Below, piece by piece: positions 5,386 to 29,852 of a stretch of 41,069 nucleotides of DNA (positions are counted from its first letter, which is position 1; the number at the start of each line of letters is the position of its first letter). The stretch is from contig NZ_HE978588.1 of NCBI RefSeq assembly GCF_000312005.1, positions 307,483 through 348,551 of the forward strand. The letters run 5' to 3'. The notes under the pieces are model-generated. The model had not been told where the DNA came from and made no database searches. It saw only the letters and a list, made by a program, of their open reading frames with translations. The stretch is from Cellulomonas massiliensis JC225. GTDB lineage: Bacteria; Actinomycetota; Actinomycetes; Actinomycetales; Cellulomonadaceae. The position numbers and the translations under genes are program-made.

Positions 5386-5966
5386 GGGAGCCGGGACTGC
5401 GCCTCCCACACGAGCGCCAGCTCGGCGGTCTCGCCCTGCAGGGCGTTGTCGGCGTCGGCCGGGAGCTCCCACGTGACGCGGTAGGTCAGCTCGTCGCCCT
5501 GCGCGACGTCGTCCCACGCGCCGAGGCCGCCGTCGCCGGCGCCGGACGAGGTCTCCGCGAACCCGACGTGGTCGCCGAGCTCGGCGAGCGTGCCGTCGAA
5601 GACCGTGGTCGTGGTCGGGTCGGCGGCGGTCCCGGACGTGATCGTCACCTGCAGCGCGTCCGCGAGCGCGGCGGACCCGCTCTCGTCCGAGGTGTAGAGG
5701 CGGACGTCGGCGGACGCGGTGCCGTCGTACGTCACCGTCACGTCGCCGTGGCCCGGCACTCCGGGCTGGATCGCGCCGGGCGAGAACGCGACCTGGTCCT
5801 CCTGGTCGTTGGTGATCTCGACCGTCGCGGCCGTGAACGTGTTCGGCGCGGTGGAGGTCTGGGCGGTGAACGCGGCGCTCGACGCGTGCGCGACGAGCAG
5901 CGCGGCCCCGAGCATGCCCGCGGTGATCGCGGCTGCCGGGCCGTACCGGCGGACGGCGGTGTTCAT
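5382..5966 (-). CDS. TasA/CalY-like secreted protein with SipW-type signal peptide
   Basis: 194 aa. The N-terminus MNTAVRRYGPAAAITAGMLG is a signal peptide. The next part, ending SSAAFTAQTSTAPNTFTAA, has the AAF..T..NTFTA signature of SipW-dependent substrates (TasA, camelysin/CalY). The mature part is acidic and rich in Thr, Ala and Gly, as expected of an extracellular beta-rich protein. It lacks an LPXTG sorting motif and a C-terminal membrane helix, so it is probably released or assembled into fibres; that role is known for TasA and inferred here. ATG 5966 is preceded by the strong Shine-Dalgarno GGAGGAGGA. It is the first gene of a two-gene operon with the signal peptidase. Confidence 0.82.
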   Translation of the reverse strand: MNTAVRRYGPAAAITAGMLGAALLVAHASSAAFTAQTSTAPNTFTAATVEITNDQEDQVAFSPGAIQPGVPGHGDVTVTYDGTASADVRLYTSDESGSAALADALQVTITSGTAADPTTTTVFDGTLAELGDHVGFAETSSGAGDGGLGAWDDVAQGDELTYRVTWELPADADNALQGETAELALVWEAQSRLP

Positions 5967-6015
5967 GGCGTGGTCCTCCTCCTGGCCGCACGGGCCTGCA
6001 GCCGTGCCTGCCTCC

Positions 6016-6044
6016 GCATCGGCACGTCCGGTGCTCGACCTGAG
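6016..6044 (-). promoter_or_regulatory. Possible sigma-28 (WhiG/FliA)-like promoter of the TasA-like operon
   Basis: On the minus strand, CTCAGGTC (6037-6044) and GCCGATGC (6016-6023) resemble the two halves of WhiG/FliA promoters, whose -10 is GCCGATAA. The 13-nt gap is about 2 nt longer than the usual N11, so this is tentative. Confidence 0.25.
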
Positions 6045-6130
6045 GGACTTTGCCCGAGTTCGTGCACCCGGCCGACCCCACCGACCGTACCCGGCGCCGC
6101 CGCCCGGACGGCGCACCCCGCGGCGAGCGC

Positions 6131-6136
6131 GACAAT
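6131..6136 (+). promoter_or_regulatory. -10 element of a leaderless promoter for the MFS gene
   Basis: GACAAT followed by 7 nt and ATG 6144. It favours that ATG over the in-frame ATG at 6135, which lies inside the -10 itself. Confidence 0.45.
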
Positions 6137-6143
6137 GGACGCG

Positions 6144-7469
6144 ATGAGCACCCCCTCCCCCACCCGCAGCACGCGCACCGCGTGGGTGGTGTGGACCGCG
6201 ACGGTCGTCGTCTACTTCGTCGGCGTCACGCACCGCACGGCGCTCGGCGTCGCGGGCGTCGAGGCGCTGGACCGGTTCGGGATGCAGGCCACCGGGCTGG
6301 CGCTGTTCTCGGTCGTCCAGCTGACCGCGTACGCGGCGATGCAGATCCCCGCCGGCCAGCTCATCGACCGCCTCGGCCCCCGCGCGATGCTGACCGCCGG
6401 CGCGGCCGTCATGGCCACCGGCCAGCTCACGCTCGCGCTGGCGCACGACGTGCCGGTCGCGCTGCTCGCGCGCGTCCTCATCGGTGCCGGGGACGCCCCG
6501 ATCTTCATCGGCGCGTGCCGGCTCGTCGCCGAGTGGTTCCCCGCCCGGCGGGTCCCGGTGATGGTGCAGGTGACCGGGCTCATCGGCCAGAGCGGGCAGC
6601 TCGCCTCGGCGATCCCCGTCGCGTGGCTCCTGCACAGCCGCGGCTGGACGGCGACGTTCGGGACCCTCGCCGCGGTCGGCGCGGTGACCGCCGTGGTCGC
6701 GTTCGTCTTCGTCTCGGCGCCGCGCCGGCCGGCCCCCACGGCGCGCGAGCCGTTCTGGGAGGACGTGCGCCGCGCCACCGCGCCGCACGGCACGCGGCTG
6801 GGGTTCTGGAGCCACTTCGTGACGCCGTTCTCGGCCAACCTCATCGCGATGCTGTGGGGCGTGCCGTTCTTCGTCACGGCGCAGGGGCTCACGCCGGCGC
6901 AGGCGAGCCTGCTGCTGACCGCGCTGACGCTGACCGCGATGAGCGCCGGGCCGGTGATCGGGCACCTGACGGCCCGGCACCCGCTGCGGCGGTCGTCCAT
7001 CGTGCTCGGGTCGGCGTGCGCGACGCTGCTGGCCTGGGCGAGCGTGCTGGCGTTCGACACGCCCCGGCCGATGTGGCAGCTCGTGCTGTTCGTCGTCGTG
7101 CTCGGCGCCGGCGGCCCGGTGTCGCTCGTCGGCATGGACTTCGCGCGGACGTTCTCGCCGCCCGACCGGCTCGGGACGGCCAGCGGGTTCGTCAACATCG
7201 GCGGGTTCGTCTCGACGATCGCGAGCGTGCTCGCCGTCGGGCTCGTGCTGCAGCTCGTCTCCCCGCCCGGCACCACCCGCTACTCCCTGGACGCGTACCG
7301 GCTGGCGTTCAGCGTCGTGCTCGTCCCGTGGGTGGTCGGGGTGACCGGCGTGCTCGTCCAGCGCCGCCGCGCGCGGGCCGAGCTCGCGGCGGCCGGCGTC
7401 GTCGTGACCCCGCTCCGCACGGCCCTCGTCGCACGGGCGCGCGACCGACGCCCCCGTGCGGAGGGCTAG
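6144..7469 (+). CDS. MFS transporter
   Basis: 441 aa, the normal size for a 12-helix major facilitator protein. The first helix begins at TAWVVWTATVVVYFVGV. The loop after helix 2 carries QLIDRLGPRAML, the MFS motif A position (GxLaDRxGrr). Regularly spaced hydrophobic segments run to the C-terminus, and the soluble tail is basic (RRRARAELAA). The substrate cannot be told; the N-terminal half resembles the ACS/organic-anion branch more than drug exporters. It is divergent from the TasA-like gene. Its stop codon (TAG) is part of the -10 of the next gene, so the HAD gene has its own promoter. Confidence 0.88.
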   Translation: MSTPSPTRSTRTAWVVWTATVVVYFVGVTHRTALGVAGVEALDRFGMQATGLALFSVVQLTAYAAMQIPAGQLIDRLGPRAMLTAGAAVMATGQLTLALAHDVPVALLARVLIGAGDAPIFIGACRLVAEWFPARRVPVMVQVTGLIGQSGQLASAIPVAWLLHSRGWTATFGTLAAVGAVTAVVAFVFVSAPRRPAPTAREPFWEDVRRATAPHGTRLGFWSHFVTPFSANLIAMLWGVPFFVTAQGLTPAQASLLLTALTLTAMSAGPVIGHLTARHPLRRSSIVLGSACATLLAWASVLAFDTPRPMWQLVLFVVVLGAGGPVSLVGMDFARTFSPPDRLGTASGFVNIGGFVSTIASVLAVGLVLQLVSPPGTTRYSLDAYRLAFSVVLVPWVVGVTGVLVQRRRARAELAAAGVVVTPLRTALVARARDRRPRAEG

Positions 7470-10640: not shown

Positions 10641-12098
10641 TCAGCCGATCCGCACGAGCGGCGCGAGCTGGATGTGCGAGTGCCCCCCGTTGCCGGGGAC
10701 GCCCGGGTCGGGCGCGAAGACCAGCGACCCGTCGTCCTGGAGCTCCCACGTCGTCTCGGTGACGAAGCCGCCCAGCTCCGGGCCCCACGCCCAGCGCACC
10801 CGGTCGCCGTCGACGGCGTATGTCGCGCCCCCGTGCGTCGGCCCGGGGACCTCGCCGTCGGCGTGCTGCGCCCACGTGTACCTGCCGCCGTCGAGGACGA
10901 ACGTGTACGTCCCGACGTTGTGGGCGATGTCGTGCTCCGGCCAGCCGCCGGCCCGCAGGACGTCGGCGTCGACCGTCACCCGGTACGTGCCGTCCGGGAT
11001 TCCGCCCGGTCGTGCCGGGACGTCCTCCCAGGCGGCCTGCTGCGCGTCGCCGCAGGTGGCGGGTGTCGCCTCGGACCGGCCCGCCGCCGCGCGGACGGCC
11101 GCGACGAGCTCCGCGGTGGCACCGTCGAGCTCGGCGGCGGCGACGAGGCTCGCGAACGTGTCCCGCACGGCGGCGCCGTCGGCGCCGGCCGCCAGCACGT
11201 GCACGCCCGCGTCGCAGGCGTCGTCGACGAACTCCGCCGCGTGGGGCCGCTCGGCGAGCGTGGCCTCGAGCGCCGTCGCGGCCGCCGCGGTGAGCGCGTC
11301 TCGGACGGGAGCATCCAGCCGGGACCAGGCGTCCGACGACGCGGCGAGCACCTGGAACTTGTAGTACAGCGGCAGGTCGGCGGTGAATCCCCACGGCGCT
11401 CCGGGCAGGCCGGGGACGAGCGAGAGCTGGCTCTCGACAGCCTGGACCTGGTCGGCCCCGGGTCCGGGATCGAAGGTCGTCAGGTCGACGGGCGTCCCCC
11501 CGAGCGCCTCGAGAGTCGCCCACACGGTCGGCGCCATCGGGGCGCGGACGCGGAGGCCGTCGAGCGTCGAGTCGGTCAGCGGCTCGTCGGCGTCGAGGAC
11601 CGCGACGCCCCGCAGGCTCTCCGGGTAGAGCCCGAGCCCGGTCGCGCCCGCGGCGGAGAGGCCGTCGAGGAGCTGCGCGACGAGCGCGTCGTCCTGAGCG
11701 ACGGCGTCGGCCTGCTCGTCCGACTCGACGAGCGTCGGCAGCTGGAGCGCGTCGAGGCTCGCGACGTCGCGGCTGCGCCAGGCGCGGGCCGGCACGAGAG
11801 CGAGCTCGTAGCCGTCGGAGAGAGCGTCGATGGCGCTCTGGTCCCAGGCCGGCTCGTCACCACCGATGCTCGGGGTCACCTCGATCCTCACGGGTGCGCC
11901 CGACGCCTCGACGGCGGCGACGAACCGGTCGACGATCGCGGTGCCCGGTCGGTCCGGCTCCTCCGCCGTCGCGAGGTGGAGCACGACCTCGTGATCACCA
12001 CCGGACCGGTCCGAGGCGCCGACGTCCTGCGTGCACCCCGCAGCGACGGCGAGCACGCCGAGCACGGCGACGGCGGCGGCTCCCAGATGGCGTGACAT
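10641..12098 (-). CDS. DctP/TRAP-type substrate-binding lipoprotein with a C-terminal beta domain
   Basis: 485 aa. The signal peptide ends in a lipobox, LAVAAGC, with the lipidated Cys at residue 22, so the protein is anchored outside the membrane. Residues about 35-340 follow the DctP solute-binding pattern: a start like VVLHLATAEEPDRPGT, a middle segment of type LDGLRVRAPMAPTVWATLEALGG, and DLPLYYKFQVLAASSDAW. About 110 further residues, from DGTYRVTVDADV, look like a beta-barrel or lipocalin-type add-on. No TRAP membrane subunit is nearby, so it may be a ligand receptor rather than a transporter part. ATG 12098 has GGAG 6 nt upstream. It is divergent from the kinase operon. Confidence 0.8.
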   Translation of the reverse strand: MSRHLGAAAVAVLGVLAVAAGCTQDVGASDRSGGDHEVVLHLATAEEPDRPGTAIVDRFVAAVEASGAPVRIEVTPSIGGDEPAWDQSAIDALSDGYELALVPARAWRSRDVASLDALQLPTLVESDEQADAVAQDDALVAQLLDGLSAAGATGLGLYPESLRGVAVLDADEPLTDSTLDGLRVRAPMAPTVWATLEALGGTPVDLTTFDPGPGADQVQAVESQLSLVPGLPGAPWGFTADLPLYYKFQVLAASSDAWSRLDAPVRDALTAAAATALEATLAERPHAAEFVDDACDAGVHVLAAGADGAAVRDTFASLVAAAELDGATAELVAAVRAAAGRSEATPATCGDAQQAAWEDVPARPGGIPDGTYRVTVDADVLRAGGWPEHDIAHNVGTYTFVLDGGRYTWAQHADGEVPGPTHGGATYAVDGDRVRWAWGPELGGFVTETTWELQDDGSLVFAPDPGVPGNGGHSHIQLAPLVRIG

Positions 12099-12147
12099 GG
12101 CGACTCCGATCCTCGTCCTTCGCTGCTGATGGATCGAGAGTCCCGGC

Positions 12148-12165
12148 GGGCACGGGGCCGTGCCC
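12148..12165. repeat. Perfect palindrome between the divergent lipoprotein and kinase genes
   Basis: GGGCACGG and CCGTGCCC flank a GG centre. It lies about 85 bp upstream of the kinase -10 and 50 bp upstream of the lipoprotein start. That suits an operator acting on both; a chance GC-rich palindrome is possible. Confidence 0.35.
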
Positions 12166-12250
12166 AGGTGGGTGTCGCGGAGTCGTCCACGGGGCAGGCC
12201 CGGGCCCGGCGTCCGGGCTGGCACGGACCCGCGGCGAAAGGACACGGTGC

Positions 12251-12256
12251 CACGAT
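12251..12256 (+). promoter_or_regulatory. -10 element of a leaderless promoter for the split-kinase operon
   Basis: CACGAT followed by 6 nt and GTG 12263. Confidence 0.4.
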
Positions 12257-12262
12257 GGGTCC

Positions 12263-13744
12263 GTGGTCGGCTCGCAGGCGGCTGACATCGTCACCGGCGC
12301 GGTCCTCCTGGCGGCAGGCGCCGGGACGCTGCGCGCGCGCCCGCGCGACCCGGTGGGCTGGTTGCTCGTGGGCGCCGCCGGGAGCTGGTTCCTCGGGTTC
12401 GCCGTGACGTCGGAGCCGGTGCTCGTGAGCGAGGTCGCGGCCGGCCTGCTGTTCCTGCACCGCGGCCTCCTGCTGCACGCCGTCGTCGCGACGGCGGTCA
12501 GGGCCGGGCCCGGCGTCGCAGGTGGTGTGGGTGGCGGCGCGTGGTCGAGCGTGCGCCGGCTCGGGACCGCCGGGCTCGTCGTCGCCGGCTACGTGTCGGC
12601 GGTGCGGCCGTGGGCGACGACGTGGCTCGTGCTGGTGGTCGGTGCGGCGGCGGCCGCCGTCGCGGGGCGCGCGCTCGTCCGGGCGCGAGCGCGGCGGGCA
12701 CGCGTGGCGTGGACGCTCGTGGTCGCCGGGACGGCGGTGTGGGTGCTCGCGGCCACGGCGCTGCGCGACCTCCCGACCGAGCAGCTCGCATGGCGGCTCG
12801 CGCCCTACGACGTGGGGATCGCAGCATCCGCCGTCGGCGTGGCGCTCGCGCGGCTGGGGGCGCGACGGGTCGCCGACCGGGCACTCCGGACGGTGGAGAT
12901 CGAGGGCCCGGCCTCGCTCGAGCGGGCGCTCGCCGCGGTGCTCGGGGACGACGACCTCCGGCTCCGACTCCCCGGGGTCGAGCCCCGCGAGGCCGTGGGC
13001 CCGACCGCCGGTGCAGCGGCGAGCCGACTCGACCTCGGCCCGCGCGGGGAGGCGGTGCTGCTCCACCGGCGAGGGCTGCTGGACGACCGCCCGCTGCGAC
13101 GCGACGTCGAGGCGGTGGTGCGCGTCGTGGTCGACGAGGAGGACCTCACCGAGCGCGTCGCGGCGGCGACGCGCGAGGTCCAGGCATCGCACGATCGGCT
13201 CGTCGCCGCCGAGGAGCGCGCCGCGCACGAGCTCGCCTGCGCGGTCGAGCAGCGCGTGGGGCCGCGCCTGGAGGAGATCCGCGCTGCCCTCGCGGCCCTC
13301 GACGAGCCGGTACCCCGGGCCGAGGCGCTGCTCGAAGAGATCGAGACCGAGCTGGCCGAGGTGGCGCAGGGTCGGCGTCGCGACGCCGACCTCGATGCAG
13401 CGCTCGCGTCGGTGGCCGCGACGTCGACCGTCCCCGCGCGCCTGACACTCGCCGGCGGCACCGGCACGCTCCGCGCCGACCGAGCCCGAGCGCTCGTGTT
13501 CGTCGCCGCGGAGGCGGTCGCGAACGCCACGAAGCACTCCCGGGCCGAGCGGGTCGAGGTACGGCTCGACGGCGATCCCGCCGCCGTGGAGCTGCGGGTG
13601 CACGACGACGGCCGGGGCGGGGCCGTCGAGCTGCCCTCGGGCGGGCTGACCGGGCTGCGCACCCGTGTCGAGGCCGTGGACGGCACGCTGACCGTCTCCT
13701 CGGATGCGCACGGGACGACCGTCGTCGCGCGGGTCCCGCGATGA
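12263..13744 (+). CDS. Histidine-kinase-like membrane protein with intact ATPase domain but no phosphoacceptor His
   Basis: 493 aa. About six hydrophobic segments fill residues 5-195, followed by a GAF-like linker. The HisKA_3-like helix reads EERAAHELACAVEQRV. Aligned to the usual R-x-A-R-E-L-H-D-x-x-x-Q-R-L, the phosphoacceptor His is Ala325 and the following Asp is Cys326; His322 sits three residues too early. The ATPase domain is good: N-box EAVANATKHS (Glu417, Asn421), G1 box DDGRGG, and G2 box GGLTGLRTRV. So this should bind ATP but not accept phosphate in the normal place. Its stop overlaps the start of the next kinase gene (ATGA). An alternative reading treats H322-E-L as a HisKA-type site, but the surrounding residues fit HisKA_3 better. 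Confidence 0.85.
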   Translation: MVGSQAADIVTGAVLLAAGAGTLRARPRDPVGWLLVGAAGSWFLGFAVTSEPVLVSEVAAGLLFLHRGLLLHAVVATAVRAGPGVAGGVGGGAWSSVRRLGTAGLVVAGYVSAVRPWATTWLVLVVGAAAAAVAGRALVRARARRARVAWTLVVAGTAVWVLAATALRDLPTEQLAWRLAPYDVGIAASAVGVALARLGARRVADRALRTVEIEGPASLERALAAVLGDDDLRLRLPGVEPREAVGPTAGAAASRLDLGPRGEAVLLHRRGLLDDRPLRRDVEAVVRVVVDEEDLTERVAAATREVQASHDRLVAAEERAAHELACAVEQRVGPRLEEIRAALAALDEPVPRAEALLEEIETELAEVAQGRRRDADLDAALASVAATSTVPARLTLAGGTGTLRADRARALVFVAAEAVANATKHSRAERVEVRLDGDPAAVELRVHDDGRGGAVELPSGGLTGLRTRVEAVDGTLTVSSDAHGTTVVARVPR

Positions 13745-15393
13745 GCACGCCTCATGGGGAGGCGCGGGCCGCGCGTCGCGGTGCGGTCGCAGGGCTGCTG
13801 GCCGCCGGAGTGACCGCGCTGGTGGTGGTCCTCTGGTCCCGGTCCGCGCCCGCGCCCTCGGCCGCGCTCGTCGTGTTCGCCGGCGCAGCGCTCGCGTGTG
13901 CGGCCCTCGTCGGCCTGACGGCCGCCGTCTCGGCGCGGGGCGAGGCGCGCCCTCAGCCGCTGAACGGGTGGGCGCTCGCGGTGCTCACGGCCGCGATGGT
14001 CGTGACGATGCCCGCGCCGGGATGGGTGCGCGTGGCCGGACCCGCCGCGAGCGCGCTCGTCGTACCGCTCGTCGTGCTGCAGGCGGTGCGCGACCGCAGG
14101 CCTCGGCGGGACGGTGCGGCGCCCTGGGACGCCGTGGCGTGCGCGGCGGGGCTGCTCGTGGCCGTGTCGACGGTGCTCCTGGTCGACCCGTTCCGGGAGC
14201 TCGCCTGCGCCGTGACGTGCGCCGCCAACGACCTGGCCGTGGGGCACGCGCCCGTCGCGGTCGCCTCCGCGCAGCTGGTGCTCGCGATCGCGGCTCTGGC
14301 GTGGGGCGCGCTGCGGTTCCGGCGGGTCGCCGAACGGCCGGCGGCGATCGCGGTCGCCACGGTCGGCGCCGTGTGGGCCGTCATGGGCCTGCGGGTACCC
14401 GTGCTGAGCCCGGACGGGACGGTGCTGGGCGTCGCGCTCGGCGTCCAGCTCGCGGCCCTCACGCTCGTGCTGCTCCCCGAGGTCGTGGCCTGGTGGGGTC
14501 TGGTACGACAGCGGCGCGTCCTGTCGCGCGTCGCGGGTGAGCTCGCCGGCTCGGGACCCGTCGACGTCGCCGGGCGACTGCGCAAGGCGACTCGCGACCC
14601 GTCGCTGGAGGTGCTCGGCCCGGCCGCCGTCGTCCCTCCCGAGCGCGCGTCCACCGCCGTGACGCGTGCGGGCCTCCCCGTGGCTCTCGTCGTCCACGAC
14701 CCCGCGGCCGCCGCACGGGTCGCCCGCGCGCTCAACCCGCTCGTCGTCGCGATCGTCGCGAACGCCGCACGCCGCCGGGACGAAGCCGAGCGGTACGAGC
14801 GGCTCGTGCTCGCGCGGCAGGAGATCGTGCGTCGGTCCGACACGGCCCGTACGTCGCTCGAGCGCGACCTGCACGACGGCGCTCAGCAACGCCTCCTCCT
14901 GCTGGGCATGGTGCTGGCGCCGCCGCCGCACGAGGGGGTGAGCGCTCACGACGCCGCGCTCCGGGCCGGCGCGGTCCGGTCCAGCGCGGAGGCGCTGCAC
15001 GAGGTGCGTCGGCTCAGCCACGGTGCGGTGCCGCCGATGCTCGCGCAGATGGGGCTCGTCGAGGCCCTGCGATCGTGTGCCGAGGCCGCGGAGCTGCCGT
15101 GCGCCGTGCACGTCGACGGCCCGCTCCCCTCAGTGCCGTCGGACGTGCAGCGCGCGGTCCACCGGGTCGTCGCGACGCAGCTCGGCGATGCCGCGCGGTG
15201 CGGCGCCCGGAGCGCCGCGGTGCGGGTCGGGCCGGGGGGCGCGGGAGTCCTGCGCGTCGTCGTCGAGCAGGACGCCTGGTCGACCGACGAGGACGAGGAC
15301 CTGGCTGACCGGGTCGGCGCGGTGCGCGGTCGCTGGGAGCGGTCGGTCCGCGGGCCGCGATCGGCCGGTGTCCTGGAGGTCCCGTGCGCGTGA
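13741..15393 (+). CDS. Histidine-kinase-like membrane protein with phosphoacceptor His but degenerate ATPase domain
   Basis: 550 aa. Hydrophobic segments occupy residues about 15-265, with one outer loop carrying FRELACAVTCAAND. A linker like that of the preceding protein leads to a perfect HisKA_3 helix, LERDLHDGAQQRLLLL, with His378. The ATPase domain that follows has lost its binding residues. The N-box position reads VVATQLGDAARCG (Glu to Thr, Asn to Asp, His to Cys), the G1 box is replaced by EQDAWSTD, and the G2 glycines are gone (DEDLADRVGAVRGRW). It should be phosphorylatable but unable to use ATP itself. It overlaps the upstream gene by 4 nt and the response regulator by 10 nt, so the three are made together. 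Confidence 0.87.
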   Translation: MSTPHGEARAARRGAVAGLLAAGVTALVVVLWSRSAPAPSAALVVFAGAALACAALVGLTAAVSARGEARPQPLNGWALAVLTAAMVVTMPAPGWVRVAGPAASALVVPLVVLQAVRDRRPRRDGAAPWDAVACAAGLLVAVSTVLLVDPFRELACAVTCAANDLAVGHAPVAVASAQLVLAIAALAWGALRFRRVAERPAAIAVATVGAVWAVMGLRVPVLSPDGTVLGVALGVQLAALTLVLLPEVVAWWGLVRQRRVLSRVAGELAGSGPVDVAGRLRKATRDPSLEVLGPAAVVPPERASTAVTRAGLPVALVVHDPAAAARVARALNPLVVAIVANAARRRDEAERYERLVLARQEIVRRSDTARTSLERDLHDGAQQRLLLLGMVLAPPPHEGVSAHDAALRAGAVRSSAEALHEVRRLSHGAVPPMLAQMGLVEALRSCAEAAELPCAVHVDGPLPSVPSDVQRAVHRVVATQLGDAARCGARSAAVRVGPGGAGVLRVVVEQDAWSTDEDEDLADRVGAVRGRWERSVRGPRSAGVLEVPCA

Positions 15394-16034
15394 TCGTGGT
15401 CGACGACATGCTGCTGCTGCGCGAAGGACTGGTCGCCGCGCTGCGACGGCACGACGTCGACGTCGTGGGCGAGGCCGCGTCGGCCGACGGGCTGCTCGCG
15501 GCGGTGGACCGGTTGGAGCCGGACGTCGTCGTGCTCGACATCCGCATGCCCCCGACGTTCACCGACGAGGGGCTCGTCGCGGCGGCGGCGCTCCGTCGTG
15601 CCAGGCCCGGCGTCGGGGTCCTCGTCCTGTCGCAGTACCTCGAGACGGTGTACGCGCACCGGCTGCTCGAGACGGCGCCGGGGCGGGTCGGGTACCTGCT
15701 CAAGGACCGGGTGGTCGACATCGCGGTCGTCGTCGACGCGTTGCGCCGGATCGTCGAGGGCGAGACCGTCGTGGACCCGACGATCGTCTCGCGGCTGCTC
15801 GGTCGCGGTCGGCAGGGCGGCTCGCTCGGACAGCTCACGACCCGGGAGCTCGAGGTGCTCGCGGCGGTCGCCGAAGGGCTCTCGAACCAGGCGGTCGCGC
15901 AGCGGCTGCACATCGGCGACCGGACGGTCGAGGCGCACACGGCCGCGATCTTCGCGAAGCTCGGGCTCGGGGAGTCCGTCGGGACCCATCGGCGGGTGCT
16001 CGCCGTGCTGACCTACCTGCGGGCGACGGGCTGA
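15384..16034 (+). CDS. NarL/LuxR-type response regulator
   Basis: 216 aa. The receiver domain has the acidic pair in VVDDMLLLREG, the phosphoacceptor Asp52 in VVVLDIRMPPT, the Ser/Thr switch in VLVLSQY and Lys in YLLKDRV. The output is a GerE/LuxR helix-turn-helix: LTTRELEVLAAVAEGLSNQAVA, then DRTVEAHTAAIFAKLGL. It is a DNA-binding activator expected to receive phosphate from His378 of the preceding protein. GTG 15384 lies within the end of that gene, with GGAGG just upstream. No downstream gene on this strand follows, so its target may be the divergent lipoprotein gene or lie elsewhere. Confidence 0.92.
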   Translation: MRVIVVDDMLLLREGLVAALRRHDVDVVGEAASADGLLAAVDRLEPDVVVLDIRMPPTFTDEGLVAAAALRRARPGVGVLVLSQYLETVYAHRLLETAPGRVGYLLKDRVVDIAVVVDALRRIVEGETVVDPTIVSRLLGRGRQGGSLGQLTTRELEVLAAVAEGLSNQAVAQRLHIGDRTVEAHTAAIFAKLGLGESVGTHRRVLAVLTYLRATG

Positions 16035-16363: not shown

Positions 16364-17296
16364 TCAGCCCCGCGCGCGGAACGGCGCCAGCGTCTCGTGG
16401 ACGACCTGCGCAGCACCCCAGTCGTCGTCGAACTGGGCGATCACGGCCAGGTGCTGGCGCAGCTGCAGGATCGGCATGCGGTCGCGCCAGCCCTCGTCGA
16501 GTCCGGTCAGGTCCGCGTACAGGCCGAAGAACGCCTCCGCCTCGGGCGGTGGCACGGTGGTCCACAGGTGCGCGAGGTCGACCTCCGCCCACGTGTACGA
16601 GACCGCGGGGTCGATCAGGGCCGGGCGGCCGTCCGGGGTGGCCATGACGTTCGCCATCCAGAGGTCGCCGTGCGTGAGGCACGCCGGCCGCTGCGGCAGC
16701 AGCTCGGGGAGGCGGTCGCACAGGCGCTCGAGCGCGGCGCGGTCCTCCGGGGACAGCGCGGCGTCGACGCGCGGCTCGCCGAGCCAGCGCAGCAGGCGGT
16801 GCCGGGCGAAGAACGTGAAGCCGTCGTCCTCCCAGTCGTTGACCTGACGGCGGCGGCCGAGCCAGTTGTCCCGGTGCCAGCCGAACCGGTCGTGCGACGT
16901 CCCGAGGTGCAGCCCCGCGACGGCGTGCGCGAGCTCCGCCCAGAACGCCGCCTCGGCGGGCCGCGGCTCCAGCACCGACAGCACCAGCAGGTCGCGGTCC
17001 GCGTACAGCACGTCGGGGGTCGCGACGCCGCCGAGCTCGCGCAGCGCCCGCAGCCCTGCGGCCTCCGCCTCGAACGCGTCCCCGACCTCCTCGTCGACGA
17101 ACGCCTTGACGAACAGCAGCGAGCCGTCGGCCCGCCGCGCGAGCGCCGCGTCCGCCGCGAGACCGCCCGTCGCGGGCTCGATCGACCGGACGTCACCGAG
17201 GCCGACCGCGCGCAGGCGGTCCAGCATCGTGGACATCGGGCCCGCGGCCTCGTCCGCGCCGCTCACCGTGCCCGTGGCGCCTGAGCTCGATCCCAT
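16364..17296 (-). CDS. Fructosamine kinase family protein
   Basis: 310 aa. It has the aminoglycoside-phosphotransferase-like kinase fold in its fructosamine-3-kinase form. The catalytic loop CLTHGDLWMANVM carries the HGDxW..N signature, and the metal-binding region is PALIDPAVSYTWAEVDLAHL. The middle motif GWHRDNWLG is also typical of the family. The likely role is ATP-dependent phosphorylation of protein-bound or free ketoamines, leading to deglycation. It is unlikely to be an antibiotic resistance kinase, given the HGDLW form. ATG 17296 has CAGGCT 6 nt upstream; ATG 17235 is a later alternative. Confidence 0.88.
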   Translation of the reverse strand: MGSSSGATGTVSGADEAAGPMSTMLDRLRAVGLGDVRSIEPATGGLAADAALARRADGSLLFVKAFVDEEVGDAFEAEAAGLRALRELGGVATPDVLYADRDLLVLSVLEPRPAEAAFWAELAHAVAGLHLGTSHDRFGWHRDNWLGRRRQVNDWEDDGFTFFARHRLLRWLGEPRVDAALSPEDRAALERLCDRLPELLPQRPACLTHGDLWMANVMATPDGRPALIDPAVSYTWAEVDLAHLWTTVPPPEAEAFFGLYADLTGLDEGWRDRMPILQLRQHLAVIAQFDDDWGAAQVVHETLAPFRARG

Positions 17297-17302
17297 GCGG
17301 GC

Positions 17303-17308
17303 AGCCTG
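17303..17308 (-). promoter_or_regulatory. -10 element of a leaderless promoter for the fructosamine kinase gene
   Basis: CAGGCT on the minus strand, 6 nt before ATG 17296. Confidence 0.35.
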
Positions 17309-17373
17309 CCACCACCTCGTCGACGACCGCTGACGGGACACTCTCGGGCGCGAGCACAGCCGCGCCCGGCGCG

Positions 17374-17393
17374 GTCGGGACCTTGGTCCCGGA
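17374..17393. promoter_or_regulatory. DevR/DosR-type operator upstream of the DevS-like kinase gene
   Basis: The site matches the mycobacterial DosR consensus TTSGGGACTWWAGTCCCSAA at 16 of 20 positions. Its core, CGGGACC-TT-GGTCCCG, is a perfect inverted repeat. It ends 5 bp upstream of the -10 at 17399, covering the -35 region, as DosR boxes of activated promoters do. Confidence 0.6.
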
Positions 17394-17398
17394 TTCGG

Positions 17399-17404
17399 TA
17401 GGTT
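17399..17404 (+). promoter_or_regulatory. -10 element for the DevS-like kinase gene
   Basis: TAGGTT, placed 5 bp after the DevR-type box and about 28 nt before the GTG start, leaving room for the GAGGAGG Shine-Dalgarno (17421-17427). Confidence 0.45.
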
Positions 17405-17432
17405 GCAGGCCGGACGTGGTGAGGAGGGTCCC

Positions 17433-19112
17433 GTGGGCGTCGATGCGCAGATGGGTGGGCGGCCGGGCGGCGCGACGTCCCAGCTCCTGGCCGCGATCCT
17501 GGAGATGGCCGGCGACCTCGACCTGCCGAGCCTGCTGGAGCGCTTCGTGCACGCCAGCACCAGCCTGACGGGAGCCCGGTACGGGGCCATCAACATCGTC
17601 GACGAGGACGGGGCGTCGCTCACGTTCGTGCAGAGCGGTGTCGACGAGGGCACGGTGGCGGCGCTCGGGCACCCGCCGCACGCGTGGGGCGTGCTCGGGC
17701 AGATCCCGGACCACGGCGTGCTGCGCCTCGAGGACCTGACCCAGCACCCGGCCTTCCGCGGCCTGCCGCCCGGGCACCCGCCGATGGGGTCCTTCCTCGG
17801 CGCCGCGGTGCGGGTTCACGGCGAGCGCTACGGCACCCTCTACCTGTCGGAGAAGCCCGGCGGCTTCGACGACGCCGACGAGGAGGTCACCCTCTCGCTC
17901 GCGGCGGCCGTCGCCGTCGCGGTCGAGAACGCGCAGCTGTACGCGCAGGAGCTGCGCCGCCAGCGCTGGCTCTCGGCGGCGCAGCGGATCTCGACGATGC
18001 TCCTGGAGGGCGCCGACGCCGAGGACGTGCTGGAGGCGGTCGCCCAGGCGGCCGCCGACAGCGGCGAGGCGGACGTCGCGGCCCTCGTCCTGCCGGGCAA
18101 CGCCGCGAGCGAGCTCATCGTCGAGATCGTCACCGACGGCGGGCGGGAGCTGCTCGGCCTCGACGTGTCGGACGAGCCGCGCGTGCGCCGCGCGTTCGAC
18201 GACCCCGACGCGGGGCTGCTCGTCGTGGACGTCTCCGCGAACGCGCAGCCCGCGCTGGCGGGGTTCGGGCCGGCGCTGCTCGCGCCGCTGCACGCGCACG
18301 GCGAGGGTCTCGGGGTGCTCGTGCTGCTGCGCCGGGCCGGTGCGGAGGCGTTCACGGAGCAGGACCTCACGCTCGCGGAGTCGTTCGCCCGGCAGGCCGC
18401 GCTCGCGTTCGTCCTCGCCGAGGCCCAGCGGCTGCGAGGGCACGAGGCGCTGCGCGGCGAGCGCACCCGGATCGCCCGGGACCTGCACGACCTCGCGATC
18501 CAGCAGCTGTTCGCCGCCGGCCTGCAGGTCGAGTCGTTGCGGTCCGACCCGTCCGAGGAGGTCTCGGAGCGGGTCGCGCGCGTGCTGGACCAGGTCGTGA
18601 CGCACGTCGACTCCGGCATCCGCCAGATCCGGGTCATCGTCCGCACGCTCGACGACCCGGGCGCGACGGTCCCCCTCGTGCAGCGCGTCGTCTCCGAGGT
18701 CGAGCTCGCGCAGGCGTCGCTCGGCTTCGCGCCGACGCTGGATGTCGACCTCGACGGCGCACCGGTGGACCTGGGCGACGGCGGCCGCGACCGGCAGGAG
18801 GCGCTCGACGCGCTCGTGGCGCCGGGCCGGGCGAACACCGTGGTGGCCGTCGTCCGGGAAGGGCTCTCGAACGTCGCCCGGCACGCCCGCTCGCGCCAGG
18901 TGTCCGTGCGCGTGCTGGTCACCTCCGGTCCGGACGGTCGGGTCGTCGTCGAGGTGGAGGACGACGGCGTGGGCGTCCCCGCCGCTCCTACGCGCTCGTC
19001 GGGCACGCGGAACCTCGCGCAGCGCGCCGAGGAGGTCGGCGGGTCGTTCGCGCTCCTGCTGCCGCCGTCGGGTCGGGGCGCGCTGCTGCGCTGGGCGGCC
19101 CCGCTGGACTGA
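17433..19112 (+). CDS. DevS/DosT-like sensor histidine kinase (GAF-GAF-HisKA_3-HATPase)
   Basis: 559 aa, soluble. The first GAF domain (residues about 15-165) closely follows mycobacterial DevS: ARYGAINIVDED, then QHPAFRGLPPGHPPMGSFLG and YGTLYLSEKPGG. His105 and His115 sit ten apart like His139 and the haem ligand His149 of DevS, so haem binding is possible but unproven. A second GAF spans about 190-330. The HisKA_3 motif is RIARDLHDLAIQQLF with phosphoacceptor His352. The ATPase domain has N-box EGLSNVARHA and G1 EDDGVGV. No response regulator gene is adjacent. GTG 17433 has an excellent Shine-Dalgarno. Regulation by a DevR homologue is suggested by the box upstream. Confidence 0.88.
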   Translation: MGVDAQMGGRPGGATSQLLAAILEMAGDLDLPSLLERFVHASTSLTGARYGAINIVDEDGASLTFVQSGVDEGTVAALGHPPHAWGVLGQIPDHGVLRLEDLTQHPAFRGLPPGHPPMGSFLGAAVRVHGERYGTLYLSEKPGGFDDADEEVTLSLAAAVAVAVENAQLYAQELRRQRWLSAAQRISTMLLEGADAEDVLEAVAQAAADSGEADVAALVLPGNAASELIVEIVTDGGRELLGLDVSDEPRVRRAFDDPDAGLLVVDVSANAQPALAGFGPALLAPLHAHGEGLGVLVLLRRAGAEAFTEQDLTLAESFARQAALAFVLAEAQRLRGHEALRGERTRIARDLHDLAIQQLFAAGLQVESLRSDPSEEVSERVARVLDQVVTHVDSGIRQIRVIVRTLDDPGATVPLVQRVVSEVELAQASLGFAPTLDVDLDGAPVDLGDGGRDRQEALDALVAPGRANTVVAVVREGLSNVARHARSRQVSVRVLVTSGPDGRVVVEVEDDGVGVPAAPTRSSGTRNLAQRAEEVGGSFALLLPPSGRGALLRWAAPLD

Positions 19113-26898: not shown

Positions 26899-27725
26899 GC
26901 GCGGTGACGGCCGCGGCGCCGCGGGCGGTGCGCGGCGCCCCCGCGCGCCGGGGCGTCACGCTCGCCCGGGTCCTCGCGGCCGAGTGGACGAAGCTCACGA
27001 GCCTGCGCTCGACCGCGTGGCTCGCGTTCGGCACCGTCGCGGCCACGGCCGCGACGGCCTACGGGCTGGGTCTGTTCGTCCGCGCCGAGGACGGCCGCTC
27101 CGGCACCGGGGTGGTGACGTCCGGCTCGGTGCTGGCGCAGGTCGGGTTCCTCGTGCTCGGCGTGCTCGTCGGGACGGCGGAGCACTCGACGGGCACCGCC
27201 CGCACCACGTTCACGGCGGTCCCCCGCCGGCTGCCGGTGCTCGCCGGCCAGGCCCTCGTGACGGCCGCGGCGGCGCTGGGCACGGCGGGCGCGGCGCTGG
27301 GAGCGTCCGTCCTGGCCACGTCGGGCGTCCGGTCGTCGGTGCCGCTCGCCCTCGACCTCCACGACCCCGGCACCGTCCGGGCGCTCGCCGGGTTCCTGCT
27401 GCTGCACACGGGGGTGGCCCTGCTCGGCGTCGGGCTCGGGTCGCTGCTGCGGCGGCCCGCGGACGCCCTCGTCACGGGGATGCTCCTCGTCGTCGTCCTC
27501 GACCCGCTGCTCGCCACGAACCCGGGCCGCGTCACCGACACCCTGCGCGCGCTGCTGCCCGGGGCGGGCGGCCGGCTCGTCCAGGACGACGCGGCCCTCG
27601 CCGCGCTCGACGCCGCGACCCACGGGCCGCAGCTCGGCACCTGGGGCGGCGGGGTGGTGCTCGCCGGGTGGGTGGTCGTGGCGCTCGCCGCCGCGGCGTA
27701 CCGGCTCCGGCGCCATGACCTCTGA
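26895..27725 (+). CDS. ABC-2 type permease (paralogue 2)
   Basis: 276 aa. It shares AAEWTKLTSLRS, GVLVGTAE.STGTARTTFTAVPRR and PVLAGQALVTAA with the upstream permease, and has the same helix layout. The outer loop between helices 1 and 2 differs (GLFVRAEDGRSGTG). GTG 26895 overlaps the previous stop (GTGA). Its 3' end overlaps a possible ATG start (27715) of the kinase gene. Confidence 0.88.
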   Translation: MSAVTAAAPRAVRGAPARRGVTLARVLAAEWTKLTSLRSTAWLAFGTVAATAATAYGLGLFVRAEDGRSGTGVVTSGSVLAQVGFLVLGVLVGTAEHSTGTARTTFTAVPRRLPVLAGQALVTAAAALGTAGAALGASVLATSGVRSSVPLALDLHDPGTVRALAGFLLLHTGVALLGVGLGSLLRRPADALVTGMLLVVVLDPLLATNPGRVTDTLRALLPGAGGRLVQDDAALAALDAATHGPQLGTWGGGVVLAGWVVVALAAAAYRLRRHDL

Positions 27726-27762
27726 CCCGGACGGCGCGGCGCCCCGCCCGGGTGCGGGATGG

Positions 27763-27768
27763 GACAGT
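27763..27768 (+). promoter_or_regulatory. Internal -10 element for the sensor kinase gene
   Basis: GACAGT followed by 6 nt and GTG 27775. It suggests that the kinase and regulator can be transcribed apart from the transporter. Confidence 0.4.
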
Positions 27769-27774
27769 GGGGCC

Positions 27775-29169
27775 GTGGTGATCCGGAGCGGGCCAGGCGA
27801 CGCCGTCGTCCCGGGGCCCCGTCCGGACGATGCCGCCCTCCTGACCGAGGCCCAGGTGCGCGGCGGCGGCCCGGTCGCCCGGCTCGTCGCGGCACGGCCC
27901 TGGATCATGGACCTGGTCGTGGCGGGGTCGATGGCCGTCCTCGGCGTCGTCGGGGCGGCCTTCGCGTTCGAGACCGCCGCCGGCGCGCGGGCGCTGGGGC
28001 TGTACGCGCAGGACGACGTGACGGACGTCGTCACCGGCACGTGGCTCGTCGGCGCGGCGGTCGCGCCGGCGCTGCTGCTGGCCCGCCGGGCGCGGCCGCT
28101 GCTCGTCACGGCGCTCCTGCTGGTCACCGCCGTCGCGTCGCTGCTCGTCGCGGGGGTGGTCGGCGTCGCCGTGGCGTGCCTGGCCTGCGCCCTCTACAGC
28201 GTCGCCGCGTCGCACAGCCCCCGGACCACGTGGATGACGTTCGGCGCGGTGCTCGTGGTCCTCACCGTGGCGCTCTGGCGCTGGCAGGACCTCGGGCTCC
28301 TCGAGACGCTCTCGTGGTCGGGCGCGGGGACCGGCCAGCAGTGGGACCCGACGACGTACTTCGACGAGCCGCCCTTCTCCCCCGGCCGCCGCTCCGGCGA
28401 CGTCCTGCTGCTGCTCGCGCTGCTGCTGCTCGGCGTGACCACCGGCTCGGCGACGCGCGCACGCCGGCTGCACACCGTCGAGCTGGTGGAGCGCTACCGG
28501 GCGATGGCGCGCGAGCGCGACCAGAGCGCCGAGCTGGCCCGCGCGTCCGAGCGGGCGCACATCGCACGCGAGATGCACGACGTCGTCGCGCACAGCCTCT
28601 CGGTGATGGTGGCGCTCTCCGACGGCGCCGACGCGGCCTTCGAGCGGGCGCCGGAGCGGTCCCGCGAGGCGCTGCGCGAGGCCGGGCGCACCGGGCGCGC
28701 CGCGCTCGCGGACATGCAGCGGGTGCTCGGCGCGCTCGGTCCGGTGGCCCACGACCGGCGCGCCGAGCCCACCGAGGTGGACCTCGCGACGCTCGTCGCC
28801 CGGTTCGGCGCCGTGGGGCTGCCGGTGACGGCCAGCGGGACGGACGTCGCGCTGCCGGCCGACACCTCGGTGCGGCTGGCGGTCCTGCGCGTCGTCGGCG
28901 AGGCCCTCACGAACGTGCTGCGGCACGCGCCGGGCACGGCGTCGGTGCACGTCGCGCTGCGGCGCACCCCCTCGGCGGTCGAGGTGGACGTCGTCGACAG
29001 CGGCGGCACGCGACCCGCCGAGGCGCACGGCACGGGGCGCGGCGTCGTGGGCATGCAGGAGCGCGCGGCGCTGCTCGGCGGGCACGTCGAGGCCGGCCCG
29101 CGGCCGGGCGGCGGCTGGCGCGTGCACGCGGTGATCCCGTGCGCCGACGAGGACGGAGGACGCGCGTGA
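27775..29169 (+). CDS. Sensor histidine kinase (DesK/LiaS-like, HisKA_3)
   Basis: 464 aa from GTG 27775; the coupled ATG at 27715 would give 484 aa. Four or more membrane helices lie in about the first 220 residues. The HisKA_3 helix is AHIAREMHDVVAHSLSVMV with phosphoacceptor His268. The N-box is GEALTNVLRHA. The G1 box, normally DxGxG, reads VDSGGTRP. The G2 box is GRGVVGMQERAALLGG. The short outer loops suggest sensing within the membrane or through the ABC transporter, as in peptide-antibiotic modules. Its stop overlaps the regulator's GTG. Confidence 0.9.
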   Translation: MVIRSGPGDAVVPGPRPDDAALLTEAQVRGGGPVARLVAARPWIMDLVVAGSMAVLGVVGAAFAFETAAGARALGLYAQDDVTDVVTGTWLVGAAVAPALLLARRARPLLVTALLLVTAVASLLVAGVVGVAVACLACALYSVAASHSPRTTWMTFGAVLVVLTVALWRWQDLGLLETLSWSGAGTGQQWDPTTYFDEPPFSPGRRSGDVLLLLALLLLGVTTGSATRARRLHTVELVERYRAMARERDQSAELARASERAHIAREMHDVVAHSLSVMVALSDGADAAFERAPERSREALREAGRTGRAALADMQRVLGALGPVAHDRRAEPTEVDLATLVARFGAVGLPVTASGTDVALPADTSVRLAVLRVVGEALTNVLRHAPGTASVHVALRRTPSAVEVDVVDSGGTRPAEAHGTGRGVVGMQERAALLGGHVEAGPRPGGGWRVHAVIPCADEDGGRA

Positions 29170-29852
29170 CGACGGTGCTGCTCGTGGACGACCAGGCGCT
29201 GCTGCGCGTCGGGTTCCGGCTCGTCATCGAGTCCGAGCCGGACCTCGAGGTCGTCGGCGAGGCGGCCGACGGACGGGTCGCGCTCGAGCAGGTCGCCGCG
29301 CTCGCGCCCGACGTCGTCGTCATGGACATCCGCATGCCCGGGATGGACGGCATCGAGGCGACCCGGCGCGTCGTCGCCGACCACCCGACGTCCCGCGTGC
29401 TCGTCCTCACCACGTTCGACGTCGACGACCTCGCGTTCGCCGCGCTACGGGCCGGGGCGAGCGGGTTCCTGCTGAAGTCGGCGCGCCCGGACGAGCTCGT
29501 CGACGCGATCCGGACCGTCGCGGCGGGCACCGCCGTCGTCGCGCCGCGCGTGCTGCAGCGCATGCTCGACCTGTTCGCCCCGCACCTGCCGGCCGGCGGC
29601 GACCCGGCGCGCGACCGCCCCGGCCTCGACCCACGGCTCGACGCGCTCACGCCGCGCGAGCTCGACGTGCTGCGCCTCGTCGCGCAGGGCATGTCGAACG
29701 GGGAGGTCGCGGCGACGCTCGTGCTCTCGACGACCACGGTCAAGACCCACGTCGGCAACGTGCTCGCCAAGCTCGGTGCCCGCGACCGCGTGCAGGCGGT
29801 GATCCTCGCCTACGAGTGCGGGCTCGTCGCCCGCGGCACGGGACCCTCCTGA
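29166..29852 (+). CDS. NarL/LuxR-type response regulator
   Basis: 228 aa. The receiver has VLLVDDQALLRVGF, phosphoacceptor Asp54 in VVVMDIRMPGMDG, Thr in VLVLTTF and Lys in GFLLKSARP. The output domain has LTPRELDVLRLVAQGMSNGEVAA, then STTTVKTHVGNVLAKLG. It is partnered with the kinase just upstream (4-nt overlap, GGAGGA as Shine-Dalgarno) and likely controls the transporter operon. Confidence 0.95.
   Translation: MTTVLLVDDQALLRVGFRLVIESEPDLEVVGEAADGRVALEQVAALAPDVVVMDIRMPGMDGIEATRRVVADHPTSRVLVLTTFDVDDLAFAALRAGASGFLLKSARPDELVDAIRTVAAGTAVVAPRVLQRMLDLFAPHLPAGGDPARDRPGLDPRLDALTPRELDVLRLVAQGMSNGEVAATLVLSTTTVKTHVGNVLAKLGARDRVQAVILAYECGLVARGTGPS

Follow-up and report, generated by a model that had tools for sequence, protein, structure and literature searches.

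A predicted split histidine kinase with a DctP-like lipoprotein gene at a Cellulomonas massiliensis locus

How could two neighbouring membrane kinases serve one response regulator if each has lost a different half of the catalytic machinery? This question is raised by a locus of Cellulomonas massiliensis JC225, located in a stretch of 41,069 nucleotides (contig NZ_HE978588.1, positions 307,483 to 348,551 of the forward strand), which is called the window here. The locus encodes two histidine kinase-like proteins, HK1 and HK2, and a NarL/LuxR-type response regulator (RR), and the gene of a DctP-like lipoprotein lies divergently upstream. It is close to certain that the catalytic residues are split, with the ATP site on HK1 and the phosphoacceptor His on HK2. 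The features that bear on this point are the following (DHp, dimerisation and histidine phosphotransfer; aa, amino acids).

12263..13744, + strand: HK1, 493 aa, with a membrane block, a degenerate DHp-like helix without the His and an intact GHKL domain (HATPase_c match)
13247..13249, + strand: Glu329 codon of HK1, the phosphoacceptor-His column (family alignments)
13487..13738, + strand: HATPase_c domain of HK1, residues 409-492 (Pfam)
13741..15393, + strand: HK2, 550 aa, with a membrane block, an intact HisKA_3 helix and a GHKL domain without N, G1 and G2 boxes (HisKA_3 match, 28 relatives)
14872..14874, + strand: His378 codon of HK2, in LHDGAQQ, where DxxxQ is Asp379 plus Gln383 (alignment of relatives)
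15031..15390, + strand: degenerate GHKL domain of HK2, residues 431-550 (predicted by the model to be still folded)
15384..16034, + strand: NarL/LuxR-type RR, 216 aa (Response_reg and GerE)
15537..15539, + strand: Asp52 codon of the RR, the phosphoacceptor (Asp in 16 of 16 module RRs)

The genes of HK1 and HK2 overlap by 4 bases (13741-13744) and those of HK2 and the RR by 10 bases (15384-15393). Because of these overlaps, the three genes probably form one operon. The coordinates, the frames and the 4-base overlap in the original prediction, which was made by a reader of the sequence alone, are correct; the GTG start of HK1 was that reader's choice and is uncertain.

HK1 had been described as a protein with a complete ATP site, and this is borne out. 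Residues 409-492 match HATPase_c with 36.4 bits (E 7.6e-9; Pfam cut-off 26.4), and there is no Pfam match to HisKA_3 in HK1. Eight ATP-site residues were scored, namely the Glu, Asn and His/Tyr of the N-box, the Asp and Gly of the D-box, G1 and two of G2. All eight are present in the window HK1 and in 27 of 27 HK1s, of which 23 come from loci and four (P0123, P0124, P0125 and P0153) have no locus context. The column of the phosphoacceptor in the same proteins contains H 6, Q 6, E 5, A 5, R 2, D 1, Y 1 and G 1. The His is missing in 21/27 and seven different residues stand in its place; P0153 was selected for being His-less, P0155 and P0159, likewise His-less, are uncounted, and 6 of the 23 locus HK1s keep the His. 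Such a freely varying position (Q, E, A, R, D, Y, G) is expected once the His of a partner does the work. The full Asp/Gln pair of the DxxxQ motif is found in 0/27 HK1s.

The original prediction had put Ala325 at the phosphoacceptor position. The lack of a phosphoacceptor His in HK1 stands. However, the column was misplaced and Ala325 was rejected, because the HK1 relatives align gap-free here and the His of the His-keeping proteins falls on Glu329. His322 was considered as a hidden phosphoacceptor and was also rejected. It lies seven residues upstream of Glu329, is in the wrong register and is not conserved, being Arg in P0123, the closest HK1 relative (64% identity); the other relatives among the matches listed are P0124 (48%) and P0125 (36%). 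The only other HK1 match in the window genome (E<=1e-5) has 55 bits and covers the C-terminal part only. Therefore, the HK1/HK2 pair is single-copy in this genome.

HK2 shows the opposite conservation. The window HK2 matches HisKA_3 only, with 21 bits (E 5.1e-4; cut-off 24), or 24.4 bits with the frame neighbours included, and no HATPase match was obtained with Pfam at E<=10. The combination of HisKA_3 and HATPase_c in a single protein is found in neither HK1 nor HK2. The intact LHDGAQQ helix with His378 and the loss of the ATP boxes agree with the earlier description, since 0/8 ATP-site residues are left. The His, the Asp at +1 and the Gln at +5 are present in 29/29 HK2s, a conservation that is partly built in because part of these proteins were found with the patterns LERDLHDG and AQQRLL. 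His378 is also invariant in 51/51 rows of a wider alignment, the rows of which were picked as HK2-like, many through this motif. Among HK2s from other searches (L141, L142, L147, L148, L150, L159, L225, L227-L229 and L231), 11/11 keep the His.

The 29 HK2s retain from 0 to 5 of the eight ATP-site residues; the near-identical HK2s of L031 and L033 are both within this number, those of L159 and L071 have a broken frame or are truncated within or ahead of the ATP-site part, and L159 was scored 0 as its frame breaks before that part (its second piece has 2/8). The sole Asn in the N-box Asn column is that of the L231 HK2, in which the rest of the box is lost. Loci found by HK2 similarity were defined in part by their N-box loss. 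This does not apply to the HK2s to which the lipoprotein or HK1 led, and these too have lost the ATP site, with 1/8 (L225, L227 and L229), 0/8 (L228) and 2/8 (L231). The original prediction had named two contrary findings, a normal ATP site in the second protein of a homologous pair and a working phosphoacceptor at His322 of HK1. Neither is seen, as no HK2 from the pair loci has a normal ATP site and His322 is not conserved.

The C-terminal end of HK2 is predicted to be still GHKL-folded. The model of HK2 has a mean predicted local distance difference test score (pLDDT) of 84.8, with block means of 88-97 in the GHKL part. The C-terminal domain aligns over 125 columns with the ATP-binding domain of DosS (8sbm_B), at E 1.5e-3 and a TM-score (TMt) of 0.73. 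At E<=1e-3, DesK, RetS and ChpT are matched across both domains, with loose superposition (root-mean-square deviation 5.7 and more). A GAF-like linker had been proposed for both proteins and was not supported, as Pfam gave no GAF at E<=10 in HK1 or HK2; the linker region of the HK2 model is a short strand pair and a helix. With its kinase-like fold, lost ATP site and kept His, HK2 fits the traits of kinase-derived phosphotransferases.

HK1 and HK2 are found together on one contig in 21 pair loci including the window (the others are L034-L040, L065, L080, L141, L142, L147, L148, L150, L159, L225, L227-L229 and L231), in Actinomycetota and one Chloroflexi metagenome-assembled genome (MAG). L141 and L142 belong to the window's own family, and the module also occurs in Thermoleophilaceae, Micromonospora, Nitriliruptoraceae, Solirubrobacterales, Streptosporangiaceae, Acrocarpospora and Streptomyces olivochromogenes, the last with two modules. 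HK2 relatives among the best 120 of 494 matches are P0002 (51%), P0003, P0004 and P0005. P0002 and P0124 are probably one locus, because both are recorded for a single contig of 7943 bases from the same source. A genome scan with the HK2 alignment gave a best 80 loci composed of 13 HK2-type and 67 ordinary kinases, and genome searches added more. A second kinase open reading frame is present at 9/13 HK2-type loci vs 4/67 ordinary loci. The typing covered about 40 of the strongest HK2 matches, so very diverged HK2s may be missed, and the HK2 of G481, cut by a contig end, was left untyped.

A tree of 24 HK1s, 26 HK2s and 15 ordinary kinases separated an HK1 clade (SH-aLRT 100) from an HK2 clade (99); it was made by a quick method with only 15 ordinary kinases and has three long branches. 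The L035 HK1 (frame broken by N) and the HK2s of L159, L071 and L231 are outside the trees. The HK1 and HK2 distances are correlated (r=0.896, p=1e-4, n=18), and the lipoprotein and RR distances correlate with them at r values between 0.63 and 0.78 (n=18 or 16, p=1e-4 throughout). The matrix correlation means co-inheritance, not contact, because the test leaves shared species history in. The HK1 and HK2 profiles were aligned by HHalign with a probability of 100 over 487 columns. Thus the two proteins share a common ancestry, as had been proposed, and they are not necessarily direct duplicates.

HK1 and HK2 fall short of the canonical family profiles, and frame-broken copies occur at L035, L159 and L232 in draft assemblies. 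Both facts are in line with a decaying or misassembled locus, in which two pseudogenised kinases would have no joint function. This explanation has almost no chance of being right. It is already contradicted by the open overlapping frames in the window, the opposite conservation in 21 pair loci and the correlated distances.

The regulator looks intact, with receiver phosphorylation residues and a GerE helix-turn-helix present (Response_reg 1.2e-14, GerE 2.5e-14 in Pfam). In the 16 module RRs, Asp52, the second acidic residue, the Ser and the Lys are kept in 16/16, and the first acidic residue is Asp in 15 and Glu in 1. The remaining part of the module lies on the other side of HK1.

10641..12098, - strand: DctP (TRAP-type) orphan solute-binding lipoprotein, 485 aa, with ATG at 12098, a lipobox-like ...AVAAGC and a C-terminal beta-rich domain
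12099..12262, no strand: divergent intergenic region between the lipoprotein and HK1 genes, given by coordinates only; a probable shared promoter region

The lipoprotein matches PF03480 with 25.8 bits (cut-off 23.4). Its AlphaFold model (pLDDT 80.5) matched TRAP binding proteins at E 1.9e-17 and TMt 0.78. A lipoprotein homologue is present in 21/21 pair loci, of which L225 and L227-L229 were found via the lipoprotein, and in 17/17 found without the lipoprotein bait; the lipoprotein profile was made from six proteins of five pair loci including the window, and those matches are by construction. Within the best 80 loci, the lipoprotein accompanies 10/13 HK2-type vs 0/67 ordinary-kinase loci (Fisher p=1.7e-10), the HK2-type loci without it being L032, L033 and L071. 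Contig ends truncate both L032 and L033. In the genome of L032, a frame-broken HK1 lies beside a DctP-like fragment on another contig, and in G517, the genome of L033, HK1 is on another contig.

The module is rare. With the near-full-length lipoprotein as its marker, it was found in 5/396 phylum, 4/394 class and 3/396 order genomes, counts in which the window genome is part of each draw and the draws overlap. The class count includes G756 (match to model position 419 only) and G685 (contig too short for kinases), and a fourth order-level match, G022, is a short form. The near-full-length lipoprotein genomes of the phylum set (G000, G262, G326, G487 and G517) are the genomes with an HK2-type gene.

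No match to DctM (PF06808) was found in the window genome (92.6% complete; DctQ not searched), and the same search was positive in 7/14 control genomes. The DctP-type protein is thus an orphan, its fold being present and its DctM partner absent. An all-against-all comparison of the 21 module loci gave no further conserved neighbour gene, with one cyclase-like gene common to 3 loci; candidates for other conserved neighbours were rejected, as their frame groups were read off the module genes themselves. Because DctM is missing from the genome and no other neighbour is conserved, the lipoprotein is likelier an input than a part of a transporter. It is likely to be the sensor input of the kinase pair, a weaker claim than that of the split, and it could instead be a regulated output of the module. 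One inverted repeat of 8 nt, at most a candidate element, lies at 12148-12165 between the lipoprotein and HK1 genes; no common inverted repeat was seen across seven lipoprotein-kinase intergenic stretches.

The lipoprotein family also occurs in other arrangements. Tandem lipoprotein frames were seen in two Actinobacteria MAGs, at least four near a contig end in G487 and five on one contig in G517, and the lipoprotein stretches concerned are L185, L222 and L223. Short DctP-like proteins, matching to about model position 390, are present in G441, G363, G234, G449, G549 and G022. The kinase pair was not found beside them in the stretches examined (L216-L221 and L230), which come from short contigs for G441, for G234 and in one case for G449; in four of the short-form genomes, moreover, HK1 is without a match at 1e-40. 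The short form is apparently a separate use of the family. As for the other neighbours in the window, a fructosamine kinase-like gene (16364-17653, - strand) lies downstream of the RR on the opposite strand, and a GAF-GAF-HisKA_3-HATPase kinase (17403-19112, + strand) is near the module. Farther on, in the region 27715-29852 (+ strand), a HisKA_3 match at 28549-28746 (+ strand) in the frame 27715-29169 is followed by a receiver and GerE regulator (residues 473-684 of the 27759 frame).

We consider it likely that HK1 trans-phosphorylates His378 of HK2, from which the phosphoryl group would be transferred to Asp52 of the RR, in a lipoprotein-sensed split kinase. The DctP-like lipoprotein would bind its ligand outside the membrane and present it to the membrane domains of HK1 and HK2. 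HK1, as the kinase subunit, would bind ATP and phosphorylate His378 in trans within a heteromer. From HK2 the phosphoryl group would pass to Asp52, and the DxxxQ motif that HK2 retains could also enable it to dephosphorylate the RR. The support, at the level of sequence, consists of complementary catalytic residues, opposite conservation, separate clades and gene association. The window pair has the residues of a split kinase on both sides, and in the 6/27 relatives whose HK1 keeps the His the split is one-sided.

A second kind of phosphotransfer is brought up by a receiver-only frame, which stands immediately upstream of HK1 in 16/22 HK1 loci: L034 (1600-2670), L035, L037 (4797-5174, - strand), L038, L039, L040, L080, L147, L148, L150, L159, L173, L225, L228, L229 and L231. 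L232, with a frame-broken HK1 on a short contig, is outside this count. The lipoprotein and this stand-alone receiver are parts of the module beyond the original prediction. Seven receiver sequences were compared, and the acidic pair, the Asp, the Ser and the Lys are conserved in every one. The module may descend from a phosphorelay of the Spo0F/Spo0B or SdrG/PhyT type, in which HK1's own His would feed the receiver, then the HK2 His and finally the RR. HK2 would be a membrane-bound histidine phosphotransferase and the window lineage a collapsed form. The arrangement recalls the Pak-SdrG-PhyT-PhyR relay, where PhyT, membrane-anchored and with a degenerated ATPase domain, takes phosphate from a single-domain regulator (PMC5898713; this and the other papers are cited from excerpts of their text). 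The matches of the HK2 model, many of them kinases, include ChpT (4fmt, E 3.6e-4).

The distribution of the receiver bears on this proposal from both sides. All 6/6 His-keeping HK1 loci have it, and the six loci without it beside HK1 (the window, L036, L065, L141, L142 and L227) all have His-less HK1s. However, 10/16 His-less HK1 loci still have a receiver, which could not be fed from HK1's own His, and the link between receiver and His is a trend short of significance (one-sided Fisher test, p=0.107). Because both the receiver and the HK1 His are absent from the window module, this phosphorelay is inapplicable there. The ancestral phosphorelay is the main rival, and we regard it as unlikely.

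Another explanation would make HK1 a non-catalytic, ATP-binding pseudokinase regulator, with the HK2 His phosphorylated by another HisKA_3 kinase or HK2 acting only as a phosphatase of the RR. RetS-like kinases modulate their partners without kinase activity, and structures of RetS are among the matches of the HK2 model as well. HisKA_3 is matched seven times in the window genome, by HK2 and by six others, all six above the cut-off and two of them inside the window, and the kept DxxxQ motif of HK2 suits a phosphatase. Against this stands the retention of 8/8 ATP-site residues in every HK1 even as the DHp-like part drifts, a pattern better suited to catalysis than to a scaffold, together with the tight co-inheritance of HK1 and HK2 (r=0.90). 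A pseudokinase HK1 is accordingly judged improbable.

Besides the partly built-in conservation of the HK2 His, several observations weigh against a catalytic HK1/HK2 pair. At L031 (G487, a MAG 89% complete), lipoprotein genes are present and HK1 was not found in the assembly. The 9.4-kb contig that carries the L071 HK2 (5432-7306) encodes no HK1 and no lipoprotein, and since no HK1-like match other than this HK2 was found in the 1.8-Mb genome bin (a MAG), this HK2 stays an exception to the pairing. The DHp-like helix of HK1 is very degenerate in the window clade, where dimerisation through it is uncertain. The HK1s that keep the His (6/27) may double as ordinary kinases. Single ATP-site residues survive in some HK2s (N-box Glu 12/29, D-box Asp 8/29, G1 2/29 and G2 4/29); the L148 HK2 has the most, 5/8, yet its N-box Asn is replaced by Asp. 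To judge from their residues, HK2s of this kind may still bind nucleotide to some extent. Finally, the receiver beside HK1 in most loci suggests another phosphotransfer route.

How did the catalytic HK1/HK2 pair arise? The original prediction saw an obligate heteromer formed by one reciprocal degeneration. The division of labour and the co-occurrence hold at the sequence level, and the HK2 ATP site is lost in every pair locus; the single reciprocal loss does not hold, as the HK2s form one clade (support 99) while HK1 keeps its His in 6/27 and the HK1 losses are thus not always paired with those of HK2. On an HK1 tree built without the His region, the presence of the His changes state at least five times, with clustering no greater than in shuffles, and sister HK1s are unlike each other (L037 Q and L038 H; L039 H and L040 Q; L147 H and L148 Q). 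Parsimony cannot tell gain of the His from loss, and the changes are read as losses because the His is the ancestral kinase state. Since the HK2s are one clade and the HK1 His changes so often, the ATP site of HK2 was apparently lost before the HK2 clade diversified and the His of HK1 later, repeatedly. We lean slightly towards the full picture of an old, rare module, combining an orphan TRAP-type lipoprotein (up to five tandem copies) with an obligate two-protein kinase, that evolved by a ratchet of HK2 ATP-site loss followed by many HK1 His losses.

Judged by its residues, the module belongs functionally with the split kinases. HK1/HK2/TcrA of Mycobacterium tuberculosis is likewise a set of two half-kinases beside one regulator in an actinobacterium. 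It consists of separate domains with another regulator type, and is likened to the window module by description, not by sequence. The system (Rv0600c-Rv0601c-Rv0602c) is named in PMC8965865 and PMC9274095. CheA3 and CheA4 of Rhodobacter sphaeroides likewise carry ATP site and phosphoacceptor His on two proteins; neither half autophosphorylates alone, but CheA3 becomes labelled when the two are mixed (PMC3591291). The CheA His protein is also a phosphatase. In contrast to the membrane HisKA_3 pair with vestigial domains, a NarL RR and a lipoprotein described here, those are chemotaxis proteins without whole domains (PMC3591291). PhyT of Sphingomonas, Spo0B and ChpT resemble HK2 in being kinase-derived, with a degenerate ATPase domain and a phosphorylatable His, and PhyT is membrane-anchored. 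However, they take their phosphate from a receiver domain (PMC5898713), whereas HK2 is partnered by an HK1 whose ATP site is intact, and the window module has no stand-alone receiver. HK2-like cases are not unheard of, because 1556/42417 HisKA proteins (3.66%) have no recognised HATPase in a SMART count (PMC3591291). On the input side, ligand-loaded binding proteins activate sensor kinases, as in BctC/BctE (PMC9602780). An extracellular solute-binding protein as kinase input is reported there and proposed here, but BctC is part of a transporter, whereas the module described here combines an orphan DctP-like protein with a split kinase. A search of the open-access literature gave no account of this pair, of a membrane pair of HisKA_3 type in which both sides retain vestigial domains reciprocally, or of an orphan TRAP-type DctP lipoprotein tied to a split kinase.

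In theory, the splitting of a kinase allows switch-like signalling (PMC3591291). A further suggestion from the module is that orphan TRAP-type binding proteins may act as dedicated sensors. With 21 co-inherited membrane pairs, HK2s that would not bind ATP and HK1s at different stages of His loss, the passage from a self-sufficient sensor to an obligate heteromer would become testable. If the proposed history is true, species from before and after the loss of the HK1 His survive, and the direction of the change and the dispensability of that His could be tested on natural pairs.

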